A model generated the notes under the pieces. That model ran no database searches. It saw only the letters and a list, made by a program, of their open reading frames with translations, and had not been told where the DNA came from. From the NCBI RefSeq assembly GCF_006716185.1, contig NZ_VFOP01000001.1, positions 2,480,001-2,544,000 of the forward strand: a stretch of 64,000 nt of DNA, given 5' to 3'. The translations under genes and the position numbers were made by a program. This DNA comes from Ornithinicoccus hortensis (GTDB lineage Bacteria; Actinomycetota; Actinomycetes; Actinomycetales; Dermatophilaceae). Positions 8,930 to 14,194 of the stretch are shown one piece after another (the first letter of the stretch is position 1; every line of letters starts with the position of its first letter).

Positions 8930-9012
8930 CGCCCTCACCCACAGCAGGCGCGGCACGCCGACCGGCGTGACCGCATACGAGAACCACGACCGCACCACAA
9001 GGAGCACCGCGG

Positions 9013-9390
9013 ATGAGCGAGAAGACCAAGCCCGAGATCGACTTCCCCGGCGACAACCCGCCCGGCGAGCTGGTGATCGAGGACATCGTCGTCGGTGACG
9101 GCGCCGAGGCCACGGCCGGCAGCACCGTCCTGGCGCACTACGTCGGCGTTGCCTGGTCCACCGGCGAGGAGTTCGACGCCTCCTGGAACCGCGGCGAGCC
9201 GCTGGCCTTCCGGGCCGGTGTCGGCCAGGTCATCCAGGGCTGGGACCAGGGCATCCTGGGCATGAAGGTCGGCGGCCGGCGCAAGCTGACCATCCCGCCG
9301 CACCTGGGCTACGGCGACCGCGGCGCCGGCGGTGCCATCAAGGGCGGCGAGACGCTGATCTTCGTGGTCGACCTGGAGGACGTGCGCTAG
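9013..9390 (+). CDS. FKBP-type peptidyl-prolyl isomerase, cytosolic
   Basis: 125 residues, a single FKBP domain filling the protein. Conserved active-site elements are YVGVAWSTGEEFDASW, VIQGWDQGILGMKVGGRR and YGDRGAGGAIKGGETLIF. There is no signal peptide. The ATG is preceded by AAGGAGC at 8999-9005. It is a paralogue of the second domain of the preceding lipoprotein, so the pair probably arose by duplication and serves the two sides of the membrane. Confidence 0.95.
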   Translation: MSEKTKPEIDFPGDNPPGELVIEDIVVGDGAEATAGSTVLAHYVGVAWSTGEEFDASWNRGEPLAFRAGVGQVIQGWDQGILGMKVGGRRKLTIPPHLGYGDRGAGGAIKGGETLIFVVDLEDVR

Positions 9391-9414
9391 TCCGCCTCCG
9401 GAAGGCTCGGCGGA
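9391..9414 (+). terminator. hairpin after FKBP gene
   Basis: TCCGCC and GGCGGA form a 6 bp stem around a 12 nt loop directly after the FKBP stop codon. There is no U-tract. It lies 3 bp from the palindrome half next to the IS element, so it could also belong to that repeat unit. Confidence 0.35.
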
Positions 9415-9418
9415 GACT

Positions 9419-9432
9419 GCAGGATTATCGGG
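9419..9432. repeat. left arm of palindrome split by IS110
   Basis: GCAGGATTATCGGG at 9419-9432 is the exact reverse complement of CCCGATAATCCTGC at 10772-10785 on the other side of the insertion element. Joined together they would make a 14 bp-arm palindrome of the same core sequence as the one at 13137-13161. Confidence 0.85.
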
Positions 9433-9448
9433 ACGCTCCTATGGACCG

Positions 9449-10510
9449 TCAAGGCCTGATCGGGCCTGCTTCGAGCAGGCGGTAGAGATCGCGAGCGATG
9501 TAGCGCTTGAGGCAGCGTGTGATTTCGCGGTTGGTCTTGCCCTCGGCGGTGCGACGGGTGACGTATTCGCGGGTGGTTTGGTCGTAGTGGATGCGGGAGA
9601 GCGCGATGGTGTGCAGTGCCCGGTTGAGCTGTCGGTCGCCGTACCGGTTGAGGCGGTGTCGGGTGGTGACCTGGCCGCTGTTGGCCGGGATCGGGGCTAC
9701 GCCGGCGAGCATCGCGAAGGCGGCCTCGGAGTGGATCCGGCCTGGGTGGGACCAGGCGCACAGCACGGTCGCGGCCACGATCGGCCCGACACCGGGCTGG
9801 GCCAGGACGTCGGGGCGCCAGGCCAGCACGATCGCCCGGATGGCGTTCTCGTGCTCGGCGGCCTCCTTCGACAGGGCACGTGCCCGCCGGGCCAGGGCGC
9901 GCAAGGTCCTGACGGTCGTAGTGGTCTCCAGGTCCCACGTTGAGTTCAGACGCATTTTCGCCGCGGTCCTGATCATCGCCGGGACCTTCTGGCCGCGGAA
10001 CCGCTCGCGGATCGGCTCGGGCGCGGCGATGAGGAGGCTGAACAGCTGGCGTTGGGCGTCGGTGGAGGCGTTGACTGCGGACCGGCGCGCGGCCAGCAGC
10101 ACCGAGAGCGCCTGGCGGTCCCCGCCACTGCGCGGGGTGCCGAGCTTCGCGCGGGACAGTGCTTCGCGGGCGGCGCGGATCGCGTCGAGCGGGTCGGACT
10201 TGGCGCCGTTACGTCGCTTAGCGCGTTCGGGACGGTCGAGCTCGACCACGACCTCCTGGTTGCGCTCGAGGTGCCGGGTCAGGCCGGCGCCGTGCCCGCC
10301 GGTGCCTTCGATCGCCCACGCCCGCAGTGCTGCGTGCTCGTTAGCGAACTCCACCAGTCGGGCATAGCCGTCGGTCGTGGCTTCGACGGTGATCTCCTCA
10401 AGCACACCGCCGGTCCGCGCGTCGACCACGGCCGCTGAGTGAGTCTGGACGTGGGTGTCGACGCCGATGACGGTATCGACGACGTCACGTAGATCGGTCA
10501 CACTGGTCAT
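9449..10510 (-). CDS. IS110-family DEDD transposase (RNA-guided recombinase family)
   Basis: 353 residues. The RuvC-like N-terminal domain has Asp18 (IGVDTH), Glu68 (AIEGTG), Asp106 and Asp109 (KSDPLDA). The C-terminal Tnp domain has the helix-hairpin-helix-like QPGVGPIVAATVL and the conserved Ser at about residue 278 (PANSGQ), the nucleophile in the family. The ATG at 10510 has AGGAGA 7 nt upstream. IS110 enzymes recombine through a serine intermediate and are guided by a bridge RNA encoded in the non-coding end. No truncation or frameshift is visible. Confidence 0.95.
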   Translation of the reverse strand: MTSVTDLRDVVDTVIGVDTHVQTHSAAVVDARTGGVLEEITVEATTDGYARLVEFANEHAALRAWAIEGTGGHGAGLTRHLERNQEVVVELDRPERAKRRNGAKSDPLDAIRAAREALSRAKLGTPRSGGDRQALSVLLAARRSAVNASTDAQRQLFSLLIAAPEPIRERFRGQKVPAMIRTAAKMRLNSTWDLETTTTVRTLRALARRARALSKEAAEHENAIRAIVLAWRPDVLAQPGVGPIVAATVLCAWSHPGRIHSEAAFAMLAGVAPIPANSGQVTTRHRLNRYGDRQLNRALHTIALSRIHYDQTTREYVTRRTAEGKTNREITRCLKRYIARDLYRLLEAGPIRP

Positions 10511-10770
10511 GCGTTCTCTCCTTGCCTGGGAGCGGATGTGGTTCCGGTCCGGGGCGGAGACTCGGCAGGACTGTGATGAGACACGACCGGTGCGTGAACA
10601 CCGGACGGTCAAGCTCCTGATCAGGCCAACTGCTCCGACCGGGCCGGGGCCGGCAACCCCAAGCGGACAAGTCCCGAGAAAGGCACAAAGCCAGTCACCC
10701 GAAGGGTCACACTCACGGTCACCGACCAACAGCCCAGCACCATCAGGCTGCAAAGGGAATCCTCACAGTC
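10511..10770 (-). ncRNA. candidate bridge-RNA region of the IS110 element
   Basis: This is the non-coding left end upstream of the transposase, where IS110-group elements encode the bridge RNA. Two internal stretches repeat sequences found at the ends of the element. CAGTCACCCGA at 10692-10702 repeats 10766-10776, which spans the element/target junction. An imperfect 25 nt stretch at 10603-10627 resembles 9443-9466 at the opposite end. Such matches are what target- and donor-binding loops would produce, but no secondary structure was calculated and the RNA limits are unknown. Confidence 0.45.
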
Positions 10771-10836
10771 ACCCGATAATCCTGCTCTTCGTTGCAGAAC
10801 CTTCCCGGTCGATGGCGTCAGGTTCCGGGGTGAAGC
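10771..10836 (-). repeat. palindromic repeat unit, copy A (interrupted by IS110)
   Basis: Read on the minus strand this 66 bp unit matches copy B at 13084-13148 over its whole length, with about ten differences. Shared blocks include GCTTCACCCCGGAACCTG, CGACCGGGAAGGTTC and GCAGGATTATCGGGT. It contains a first imperfect hairpin (GAACCT / AGGTTC) and one arm of the second palindrome, whose other arm lies at 9419-9432 beyond the IS element. Confidence 0.85.
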
Positions 10837-10859
10837 CACCGGCCGACGCGCCGGCGCCA

Positions 10860-12014
10860 TCAGCCCCGCAGGTCGATCCGGTCGAGCACCGCGGCGGCGT
10901 GACGGCCCGCGGCCGCGGCAGCCAGGAAGGCGGCCGGGTCGTCCTCGAGCCCGCGGCCCATCGTGGAGAGCCGGACGGGGCAGTCCCGCAGCGCCTCCAT
11001 CAGGCCGGCGGGGTCCACCTCGTGCCGGCGCAGCTGCGGCGCGTCGCCCACGAGCTCGGCGGCCTGCACGGTCACCATCTCGGCCAGTTCGTCCGGCACG
11101 CCCGGCTGGCCCCGCAGGTCGGGCACCGGCAGGTCGGCGAACCGCGCCAGCACCCTCCCGTATGCCGTGAGGCTGTGGTGGGAGATGCCGCGGTGCCGCG
11201 CGCGGGGGTCGGCTCCCGACACGCGGAGCGTGGCGATGCCGTGGCCCCCCACGACGGCGGCGGCGTTCAGGGCCTCGCCCGCCGCGACCCCGGAGAAGCC
11301 CCAGCGGGTGCCGGTCCCCAGGTTGCCCGGACCCTGGGTGACGATCGCGACGTCGGCGTCGGCGACCAACCGGGCGGTCAGCAGCCCGGTGTGCACCGTG
11401 ACCGCCTCGAAGTCCCCGCCGTAGCTCTGCCCGGTCGTGACGACGGCCTCCAGCCACCCGTGCTCGCGCAGCTGCGCAGCCGTCCGGGAGAAGGCGGCAG
11501 GCAGGGCGCCCCCGTCGGTCATCACGTAGACCGCCCTCGCGCCGGGGTTGCTCGCCCGTAGCCCCGCCAGGATCGCCGGCAGGCTCGAGTGCAGGTCGGC
11601 CGCGACGACGGGCATCCCGTCGATGTTGTCCGCCTCCTCCAGCACCGCGTGGTGCGGGCTGTCCTGTTCGTCCGCGCCGAGGACCACCGCCTGCAAGGGG
11701 GTGTAGCGCGCCTTCACCAGGTGGCCGACCTCCGTGGGCGCCACGTCCGGGAGGCGCCCGAGCACGGCAACGACCAGGGCCAGGCCGCCGGTGCCGAGGT
11801 CCTTCGCCAGGGCGTTGCAGTTCAGCAGGACCCGGTCGCCGACCACCACCTCACCCAGCAGGTCGGCATACACCACCCCGCGGACCCGGCCACCGGCCGA
11901 GGTTCCCGGGGCACCCGCCGGCGACCCGCCGTCGGTCAGCGCCACCTCGACCTCCGCGGCCGAACCCCAGCGGGGCCCGACGGCGACGACTTCTCCCTCT
12001 CGCCACTGGATCAC
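10860..12014 (-). CDS. DUF3866 family protein
   Basis: 384 residues, function unknown. I recognise it as DUF3866 from the start VIQWREGEVVAV, the central MPVVAADLHSSLPAILAG and TQGPGNLGTGTRWGFSG. The last is a glycine-rich loop that could bind a nucleotide or metal. No signal peptide or membrane segment is seen. The family commonly sits beside the pafBC/proteasome locus in actinobacteria. The GTG at 12014 is chosen because a TATCGT box lies 6 nt upstream. It is divergent from pafB, with only 54 bp between start codons. Confidence 0.8.
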   Translation of the reverse strand: MIQWREGEVVAVGPRWGSAAEVEVALTDGGSPAGAPGTSAGGRVRGVVYADLLGEVVVGDRVLLNCNALAKDLGTGGLALVVAVLGRLPDVAPTEVGHLVKARYTPLQAVVLGADEQDSPHHAVLEEADNIDGMPVVAADLHSSLPAILAGLRASNPGARAVYVMTDGGALPAAFSRTAAQLREHGWLEAVVTTGQSYGGDFEAVTVHTGLLTARLVADADVAIVTQGPGNLGTGTRWGFSGVAAGEALNAAAVVGGHGIATLRVSGADPRARHRGISHHSLTAYGRVLARFADLPVPDLRGQPGVPDELAEMVTVQAAELVGDAPQLRRHEVDPAGLMEALRDCPVRLSTMGRGLEDDPAAFLAAAAAGRHAAAVLDRIDLRG

Positions 12015-12068
12015 ACGCCGACGATAACCACCCGGGCTGGAGGGGTGCGGTCGGGTAGCGTCGGGGCC

Positions 12069-13181
12069 ATGGCCCGCAGCACCCCCGCATCCACCAAGAC
12101 CGAGCGCTTGCTCAACCTGGTGATCGCCCTGCTCTACACCCGGCAGCCGATGAGCAAGGCACGCATCCGCAAGGCGGTGCCGCAGTATGCCGACAGCAGC
12201 GACGAGGCGTTCGACCGGATGTTTGAGCGGGACAAGGACGAGCTGCGCGACCTGGGCATCCCGTTGCGCACCGAGACGATCGACCCGCTGTTCGACGACG
12301 AACCCGGCTACCGGATCGACCGCCGCGAGTACGCACTGCCGGAGATCGAGTTCGCCACAGACGAGCTCGCCGTGATCGGCCTGGCCAGCCGCGCCTGGTC
12401 GCAGGCCAGCCTCGCCGGGGCGGCGGCCCAGGCGCTGCGCAAGTTGGAGACCGACGGCCTGACCAGGGACGATGCCTCGGTGGCCGGCTTCGAGCCGCTG
12501 CTGCACACCAGCGCCCCGGCGTTCGAGCCGGTCCGGAACGCGGTGCTGAACCGGCAGCCGATCACCTTCGACTACCGGGGCAGCGGGGGAGCGGGGGTCA
12601 CGAGCCGGCAGGTCCAGCCGTGGGTGCTGACCGCCTGGCACGGCCACTGGTACCTCACCGGCCACGACCTGGGGCGCGAGGCGCCGCGGATGTTCCGGGT
12701 CGACCGGATCGTCGGGGCCGTCCGCACGCAGGGCCGGCCCGGTGGCTACCAAGTCCCCGAGGACCACGACCCGCGCGCGATGATCACCTCCAGCAGCTCG
12801 TCGGCCCCGGTGACCGGCACGGTCGCGGTGCGCAAGGGCGCCGGCCACACGCTGCGCCGGCGGGCGACCGGGGTCACCGAGGTCGACGACCGGTGGGACA
12901 GGCTCACCGTCGAGGCCGATACCGGGTGGGGTCTGGTCGAGGAGGTCGCCTCCCTCGGGCCGGACGCCCGACTGGTGGAGCCCGCGGAGCTGGCCGAGCG
13001 GGTGCGCGAGGCGTTGTATGCCGTGGCGCAGGCCCACGGACCGGCGGGCGAGGCTGGGCCGGCGAGGGGCGCCGGCGAGGGGAGCTTCACCCCGGAACCT
13101 GGCGCTTCCGACCGGGAAGGTTCCCTACGAAGCGCAGGATTATCGGGTAACCCGATAATCCGACAGGAGGGCCAGCCGTGA
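12069..13181 (+). CDS. pafB: WYL-domain transcriptional regulator PafB
   Basis: 370 residues. An N-terminal winged helix (about 8-85, with RMFERDKDELRDLGIPL) is followed by a WYL domain (about 145-235, with GHWYLTGHD and RMFRVDRI) and a C-terminal WCX segment. With PafC it forms the RecA-independent DNA-damage activator of actinobacteria. TAGCGT at 12056-12061 lies 7 nt before the ATG. The last 35 or so codons are unusual because they are encoded by a copy of the palindromic repeat (13084-13161), giving a tail from GSFTPEPGASDREGS onward with no family counterpart. The stop overlaps the pafC GTG. Confidence 0.93.
   Translation: MARSTPASTKTERLLNLVIALLYTRQPMSKARIRKAVPQYADSSDEAFDRMFERDKDELRDLGIPLRTETIDPLFDDEPGYRIDRREYALPEIEFATDELAVIGLASRAWSQASLAGAAAQALRKLETDGLTRDDASVAGFEPLLHTSAPAFEPVRNAVLNRQPITFDYRGSGGAGVTSRQVQPWVLTAWHGHWYLTGHDLGREAPRMFRVDRIVGAVRTQGRPGGYQVPEDHDPRAMITSSSSSAPVTGTVAVRKGAGHTLRRRATGVTEVDDRWDRLTVEADTGWGLVEEVASLGPDARLVEPAELAERVREALYAVAQAHGPAGEAGPARGAGEGSFTPEPGASDREGSLRSAGLSGNPIIRQEGQP
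13084..13161 (+). repeat. palindromic repeat unit, copy B, inside the pafB 3' end
   Basis: A bipartite repeat. Hairpin 1 has perfect 7 bp arms GGAACCT (13093-13099) and AGGTTCC. Hairpin 2 has perfect 12 bp arms, GGATTATCGGGT at 13137-13148 and ACCCGATAATCC at 13150-13161, with a single central A. It ends 3 bp before the pafC Shine-Dalgarno AGGAGG (13165-13170). Copy A is at 10771-10836. Both arms are read through as codons of pafB. Confidence 0.9.
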
Positions 13182-14194
13182 GCAGGACGTTCGAGACGGC
13201 GACGGACCGGCTGGGGCGGCTGCTGACGATGGTGCCGTGGCTGCTGACGAGGCAAGGCATCGACATCGGGGAGGCCGCGGTGCAGTTCGGGGTGAGCCAG
13301 AAGCAGATCGTCGACGACCTGGAGCTGCTGTTCGTCTGCGGGACGCCGGGGCACATGCCGGACGACCTGATCGAGGCGTCCTGGGAGGACGGGCGGGTCC
13401 ACCTGGGTAATGCCGACACGATCGCCCGGCCGTTGCGCCTGGGGCGGGACGAGGCGCTGGCGCTCATCGTGGCGCTGCGGGCGCTGGCCGAGGTGCCGGG
13501 GATCGAGGAACGGGACGCGATCGACCGGGCGCTGGCCAAGCTGGAGCAGGCCTCCGGCGAGGCGGGGCAGGCGTCGGCGCAGGTGCGGATCGACATCGAC
13601 ACCGACGAACACGAGCAACGGGTGCTGGGACTGGTCAGGGACGCCGTGGAGCGCTGGCGCCGGGTGCACCTGTGCTACCTGGTGGCCTCCCGCGACGAGA
13701 GCACCGAGCGCGACGTGGACCCCATGCGGGTGCTCTCGATCGACGGACGCTGGTACCTGGAGGCCTGGTGCCACCGGGCCGAGGACGTCCGGATGTTCCG
13801 GCTGGACCGGGTGCAGGAGGCCACGGTCCTCGACGTCGACGGCACCCCACCGGTGCAGGCGCGGCCCCGGGAGGTCACCTCCGGGGTCTTCCAGGCCTCG
13901 CCCGAGGACGTCGTCGTCGAGCTGGAGCTGGCCCCGCGCGCCGCCTGGGTGGCCGAGAACTTCCCGGTCGAGAGCGCCGAGCACCGCGACGACGGGTCGG
14001 CCCGGGTGGTGCTGCGCGCCGCCGACCCGGCCTGGGTGGTCCGGCTGGTCTGGCGCCTCGGCGGCGCGGCCACCGTCCTCGCACCGCCCTCCCTGGTGGA
14101 GACCATCCGGCAGGGTGCGGCCGCGGCCCTCGACGGCTACCCGGACGGGCCGGCCGCGGCCGGGCAACCCACGACCGGGCCAGCCGGGGAATAG
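13178..14194 (+). CDS. pafC: WYL-domain transcriptional regulator PafC
   Basis: 338 residues, same architecture as PafB: winged helix (about 1-75, with VSQKQIVDDLELLFVCG) and WYL domain (about 140-215, with VLSIDGRWYLEAWCHRAED). It is the partner of PafB. The GTG overlaps the pafB stop in a GTGA and has AGGAGG 7 nt upstream. The hairpin of the palindromic repeat lies immediately before this ribosome binding site and could affect coupling between the two subunits. Confidence 0.93.
   Translation: MSRTFETATDRLGRLLTMVPWLLTRQGIDIGEAAVQFGVSQKQIVDDLELLFVCGTPGHMPDDLIEASWEDGRVHLGNADTIARPLRLGRDEALALIVALRALAEVPGIEERDAIDRALAKLEQASGEAGQASAQVRIDIDTDEHEQRVLGLVRDAVERWRRVHLCYLVASRDESTERDVDPMRVLSIDGRWYLEAWCHRAEDVRMFRLDRVQEATVLDVDGTPPVQARPREVTSGVFQASPEDVVVELELAPRAAWVAENFPVESAEHRDDGSARVVLRAADPAWVVRLVWRLGGAATVLAPPSLVETIRQGAAAALDGYPDGPAAAGQPTTGPAGE

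Follow-up and report, generated by a model that had tools for sequence, protein, structure and literature searches.

A probable bridge RNA-guided IS110-group element within a dispersed hairpin-forming repeat of Ornithinicoccus hortensis

The element, its copies and its ends

The window, a 64,000-nucleotide stretch (2,480,001-2,544,000) of the single-contig Ornithinicoccus hortensis genome, contains an insertion sequence whose transposase gene is on the minus strand (Table 1). The genes on its two sides, FKBP and DUF3866, are convergent. The transposase matches the Pfam domains DEDD_Tnp_IS110 (5.9e-14) and Transposase_20 (3.4e-20) in a scan whose query carried one extra residue before the ATG, and these two domains place the element in the IS110 family. 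Its non-coding ends comprise 258 nt upstream of the transposase (10511-10768) and 16 nt downstream (9433-9448); a long upstream and a short downstream end are characteristic of the IS110 group and not of IS1111.

Table 1. Features of the element, its predicted guides and its target repeat (window coordinates)
Feature	Position	Strand	Basis
IS110-group insertion sequence, 1,336 bp	9433..10768	-	Ends conserved in relatives; 6 genome copies
Transposase/recombinase gene, 353 aa	9449..10510	-	Pfam domains; 353-aa frame in 6/6 copies
Predicted bridge RNA region (target-binding loop, then donor-binding loop)	10546..10768	-	30-sequence alignment, consensus fold
Predicted left target guide and core, TTCGGGTGA	10695..10703	-	8/9 letters match left target ATCGGGT-GA; covaries with flanks
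Predicted right target guide, TTTCTCGGGAC (reverse complement GT-CCCGAGAAA)	10671..10681	-	7/8 letters match right flank CCCGATAA; covaries with flanks
Predicted left donor guide, AGGAGCTT	10611..10618	-	Matches right end AGGAGC-GT save first core base
Predicted right donor guide, ATCACAGTCC	10568..10577	-	Complements element start GA-CTGTGA
Palindrome arm of target repeat, right-end side (CTGCAGGATTATCGGG on +)	9417..9432	-	6/6 copies, many empty repeats
Remaining target repeat: TCA, second arm, hairpin body	10769..10836	.	31 further short genome matches
Unoccupied repeat copy, palindrome 13137-13161	13084..13172	.	

A DNA search with the element and its flanks, in which the best 40 of 228 candidates were scored, returned 37 matches in the 3.94-Mb genome, including 6 full copies of the element. 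A pattern for the left end, allowing up to 3 mismatches, located the same 6 places and none beyond, and its reversed control gave 0 matches in this genome. Two copies (L032, L034) differ from the window copy by 1 base, two (L033, L035) by 0, and L036, for which length alone was compared, is 1 base longer. These near-identical copies, with the 353-aa frame open in all six, reflect recent spread of the element.

Junctions of the element and its relatives were counted nonredundantly with an unrestricted pattern, from alignments ending no more than 5 bases from the element end. The element starts with GAC in 34 of 37 junctions (the rest being NAC, CAC and GGC) and ends with GT in 40 of 43 (the rest being TT, GG and AT), and the base following the right end is C in 43/43. 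The simplest reading would be that the element, CTGTGAGG...GAGCGT, was put between GA and C without duplication or loss. In comparison with the empty forms of the repeat, no target duplication is present, and the long arms at the ends belong to the target alone, leaving the element without long terminal inverted repeats; both properties are those of the IS110 family. Clean insertion agrees with the account of IS110-family elements as not duplicating target bases (PMC11187229).

The dispersed target repeat

The element is flanked by arms GCAGGATTATCGGG (9419-9432) and CCCGATAATCCTGC (10772-10785), which are exact reverse complements of 14 bp, as stated in the preliminary description; the intact palindrome reported there at 13137-13161 is likewise present and reads GGATTATCGGGTAACCCGATAATCC. 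That description also called for a search for further copies of the arm, and the arm recurs: the 11-mer GGATTATCGGG occurs 54 times (29 + 25) in the 3.94-Mb genome and, with its letters reversed, 0 times, so the recurrence is not due to chance. All 6 IS copies lie inside such palindromes, and 29 palindromes are unoccupied (counted from 57 rows, almost all read on both strands). Together with 2 tandem part-copies near 2,212,034-2,212,159, the 29 account for the 31 short matches of the DNA search, and the repeat is thus present in many dispersed palindromic copies: 29 empty, 2 tandem part-copies and 6 occupied.

The palindrome stands at the beginning of a repeat of ~85 bp. Specifically, an empty copy in repeat orientation reads CTGCAGGATTATCGGG-TNA-CCCGATAATCCTGC and continues into a second, imperfect hairpin (body GCTTCGTAGCAGAACCTTCCCGGTCGATAGCGCCAGGTTCCGGGGTGAAGC), and fold prediction gives a near-perfect hairpin for the target. 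The six occupied copies have six different flanks and differing repeat bodies, and in all six the body lies on the transposase-upstream side. Removal of the element regenerates a palindrome, as had been proposed: position 9432 joined to 10769 yields CTGCAGGATTATCGGG|TCACCCGATAATCCTGC, which is how empty copies read; their core around the insertion is ..ATCGGG-TNA-CCCGAT... The element had been said to sit exactly at the palindrome centre; it does lie in the palindrome, but inserted 1.5 bp to one side of the axis. Its end, formerly placed at 10770, was 2 bp off and is corrected to 10768, because 17/17 palindromes found with a pattern permitting 0-8 middle letters have exactly three.

One of the two repeat copies in the window falls within an open reading frame. 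Here, at 13084-13181, an empty repeat lies in the reading frame of a WYL gene, the first of a pair whose second member has a PafC domain, and encodes the last 30-odd residues of the protein, ending SAGLSGNPIIRQEGQP; this frame runs into the beginning of the gene that follows. Elsewhere, locus L022 (genome 2211956-2212172) carries tandem repeat copies with a 62-bp unit and shared palindromes. We term the repeat REP-like rather than REP, because a Y1 (RAYT-type) transposase was not found in this genome (PF01797, 0 matches, with matches in 5 of 14 control genomes).

The full repeat gave 0 matches (E up to 0.001) in the 30 other genomes of the genus that were searched. An 85-nt consensus of it gave matches, mostly to the palindrome part, in at least 25 of the other 185 family genomes, with at most the best 4 candidates per genome scored. 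The four matched loci examined all hold the centre CGGGTGACCCG, with other arms and bodies (near 1451 and 1513 in L180, 1471 and 1533 in L181, 1509 in L182 and 1555 in L183), and the two centres in L180 and in L181 are 62 bp apart, like the tandem copies in the present genome. A literature search on REP in Actinobacteria and Janibacter returned nothing relevant describing CGGGTGACCCG-centred palindromes, and one on an Ornithinimicrobium repeat with IS110 returned no paper.

It had also been suggested that related genomes be compared for the empty site between the FKBP and DUF3866 genes. Among 30 such loci, the window's own included, the five close ones alone were used (L187, L191, L193, L195 and L204, from other genomes of the genus): the gene ends are separated by 55-132 bp that contain no palindrome and no IS, and the convergent order is seen in L187, L191 and L195. 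At other loci the gap exceeds 1,000 bp in many cases (gene order differs) or the stretch holds no FKBP gene. These empty spacers thus lack the palindrome, but they do not refute its reading as a target, because the 30 other genomes searched in the genus lack the repeat altogether; they show that the repeat is young at this site.

Predicted bridge RNA and its agreement with the flanks

The long non-coding end can be aligned across 30 elements, the window's included, and the predicted consensus fold places the target guides in an internal loop. Of the 59 pairs in the fold, 11 show one or more double changes; because the covariation term is small (-2.88 of -78.68 kcal/mol), energy and precedent are the main support for the predicted fold. 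The first letters of the element also pair with the right donor guide in this fold, a pairing that in the living system would be one of RNA against DNA. Rfam gave no match within 9000-13500 at E up to 1.

The guides of the window element read TTCGGGT-GA and GT-CCCGAGAAA, and the site reads ATCGGGT-GA / CCCGATAAT. Since the guide letters match both sides of the site, the predicted bridge RNA appears to name the palindrome. The same relation is seen among relatives, which were drawn from one contig scan (51 loci) and the best loci of a family search (any match in 107 of 186 genomes, many of them short; best 30 loci kept, truncated elements dropped). In particular, left guides and left flanks are equal at 185 of 238 letters (n = 34), against a permuted mean of 97.6 and a maximum of 127 in 20,000 permutations; right guides and right flanks, compared over the first 4 letters after GTC, are equal at 83 of 116 (n = 29), against a permuted mean of 49.9 and a maximum of 69. 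These permutation figures are not exact probabilities, as related elements share ancestry. Both sets consist of nonredundant elements and include the window's; L060_1-101 and L164 were dropped for want of anchors and five more had no right flank, and L060_2-1338 was kept although its left junction contains an N.

Target guides complementary to both flanks and donor guides complementary to the element ends are the marks of an IS110-group bridge RNA, and the predicted guides would supply both. The right donor guide forms 8 standard pairs with the element start in 30/30 sequences, one of them a G-U; donor guide positions hardly vary, which makes covariation uninformative for them. Because the target guides match both arms and agree with the flanks beyond permuted pairings, the palindrome is most probably the programmed target and not part of the element.

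Empty sites fitting LT-GA-C were found in three genomes: the present one, G120 and Nocardioides sp. Root122. In G120, a relative sits in a different repeat with inverted arms, one IS copy having the junctions GTATCGA|GACTG and GAGCGT|CCAGGC. The empty form GTATCGA-GA-CCAGGC occurs in 4 of 7 pattern matches, in a common repeat context, and the 3 other matches have other spacers; because the reversed control gave 4 chance matches, showing the short pattern alone to be unspecific, the 4 exact empty sites rely on their shared repeat context. In Root122, a repeat copy reads TCTGGACT-GA-GGAGCGAGCGAG against an IS right flank of GT-CGAGCGAGCGAG, and this paralogous site gives partial support, because one base differs after the core.

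Within the present genome, the occupied sites may represent preferred repeat subtypes. We defined a guide-matching site, after the data had been seen, as one with at least 6 of 7 left-guide letters and core GA. Thirteen of 35 sites fit in the observed orientation and 5 more when reversed, and this set of 18 contains all 6 occupied sites (hypergeometric 0.011; 0.003 when the right guide is also required at 7/8 or better, 15 sites); the GA part of the definition is partly circular, because GA stands at the left junction of nearly all relatives. When the left arm is the sole criterion, 22 of 35 sites qualify in the observed orientation, all 6 occupied ones included (0.046, hand-computed), and every one of the 35 arms qualifies in the reverse orientation. 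The trend runs in the direction expected of a preference for guide-matching subtypes, and it is weak.

Insertion model, alternatives and unequal cores

On sequence evidence, we regard the location, ends, copy number, guide-flank covariation and empty sites as established. The reading we favor, with a probability of about 0.9, is that an IS110-group element inserted in a dispersed hairpin-forming repeat to which bridge RNA guides directed it. In this model, the recombinase would use a bridge RNA that originates in the 5′ non-coding end, with a target loop providing two guides, one for each palindrome arm, and a donor loop providing two guides for the element's own ends. A circular form of the element would join the repeat between core GA and the next C, with no duplication, and strand exchange would proceed as in IS621. 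A palindromic target shows the guides two like arms; orientation probably depends on the base at its center, the G of GA.

It is very unlikely that the arms belong to the element and that repeat and IS moved as one unit. The right-end-side arm is indeed identical in 6/6 copies, the 30 other genus genomes lack the repeat, and the 5 orthologous spacers lack both repeat and IS; but 29 palindromes stand empty, the other-side arms and the bodies vary from copy to copy among the 6, relatives share the element's ends but not its flanks, and guides track flanks. Recognition of a hairpin shape (cruciform), such that any strong palindrome serves, could explain the near-perfect hairpin of the target and the inverted-arm repeat around the G120 relative, but same-ended relatives occupy varied flanks that match their guides, and one orientation is used in 6/6 copies despite a nearly symmetric target, leaving this explanation very unlikely as well. 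The idea that insertion deletes 2 bp arises from the earlier coordinates, which join as GGG-A-CCC against the empty GGG-TNA-CCC; the difference vanishes once the end is set at 10768, the empty sites of the present genome and of G120 fit clean insertion, and the chance that this idea is correct is negligible. We also rejected a core GT with a 2-bp target deletion: relatives differ in the bases that precede GACTG, and the empty sites read LT-GA-C.

In empty targets read in IS orientation, the second core base is A in 29/29 sites of the present genome and in the 4 G120 sites, and the first core base in the former is G in 14, A in 10 and C in 5. Among the nonredundant junctions, the core is GA on the left (34/37) and GT on the right (40/43). 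Because top strands are cut after the core in the IS621 scheme (PMC11208158), the core of the target would end up in the left junction and that of the donor in the right junction, from which we infer unequal cores, GA in the target and GT in the donor. The right target guide ends GAC (fitting GT) and the right donor guide GTC (fitting GA) in 30/30 aligned sequences; both thus fit the partner's core after exchange, whereas against their own DNA the second core base is mismatched. We tentatively suggest, with the odds somewhat against it, that unequal cores in this actinobacterial IS110 clade make the core a handshake that drives strand exchange forward. If so, the near-constancy of GA at the left and GT at the right would reflect inheritance of top-strand information only, and the second-strand step or core repair would not be a simple 2-nt staggered exchange with random repair. 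Such an exchange should give mismatches and mixed outcomes, whereas mixed junctions are nearly absent. The handshake of IS621 involves positions 6-7 beside the core, whereas that of the present clade would involve position 9. We found no description of unequal cores in the IS110 and bridge-recombinase literature, in searches directed at other topics whose scope excluded preprints and most subscription journals.

The choice of palindromic or REP-type targets by IS110-family elements, which had been stated in the preliminary description, is in print (PMC1525189, PMC11208160). IS621 of E. coli, of the IS110 group, resembles the present element in its Transposase_20 recombinase, left-end bridge RNA, target and donor loops, REP target and top-strand cleavage after a 2-nt core; it differs in host and repeat, and its core is CT in both target and donor, against GA in the target and GT at the right junction here (PMC11208160, PMC11208158). 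A core shared by target and donor, a feature of the IS621 subtype that does not define the family, therefore seems not to apply to the present element. For each of ISPa11, ISPpu9, ISPpu10, ISRm22, ISRm19 and ISPsy8, all copies share a single insertion position in a host-specific REP, this position being the palindrome axis for ISRm22 and ISPsy8; their hosts are Pseudomonas and Sinorhizobium, some have 2-6-bp duplications, and the sections of the source that treat them describe no guide RNA (PMC1525189). In IS1111/IS110 seekRNA systems such as ISEc21, an upstream non-coding region likewise guides insertion without target duplication, but the ISEc21 target was traced to a region within IS3-family elements, whereas the present target is REP-like (PMC11187229). 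REP-targeting IS110 elements are thus already known, IS621 and others among them, and the present element is a new, further member; its target, as the preliminary description had supposed, is new. ISPsy8, with OrfA and OrfB, is not an IS110-group element.

With this locus, an actinobacterium joins the cases where one can read the target repeat, its empty sites, the guide RNA and reprogrammed relatives from sequence. The clade provides a set of ready-made guide variants and, if its cores are unequal, a natural setting for testing the proposed handshake step of bridge recombinases. At L060:2644-4081 and L066:1-1464, related IS copies abut their own partial copies end to end, with an N at one junction and assembly error possible. 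An IS copy in another genome of the genus (G017) shares its flank with L061, from Ornithinimicrobium pekingense.
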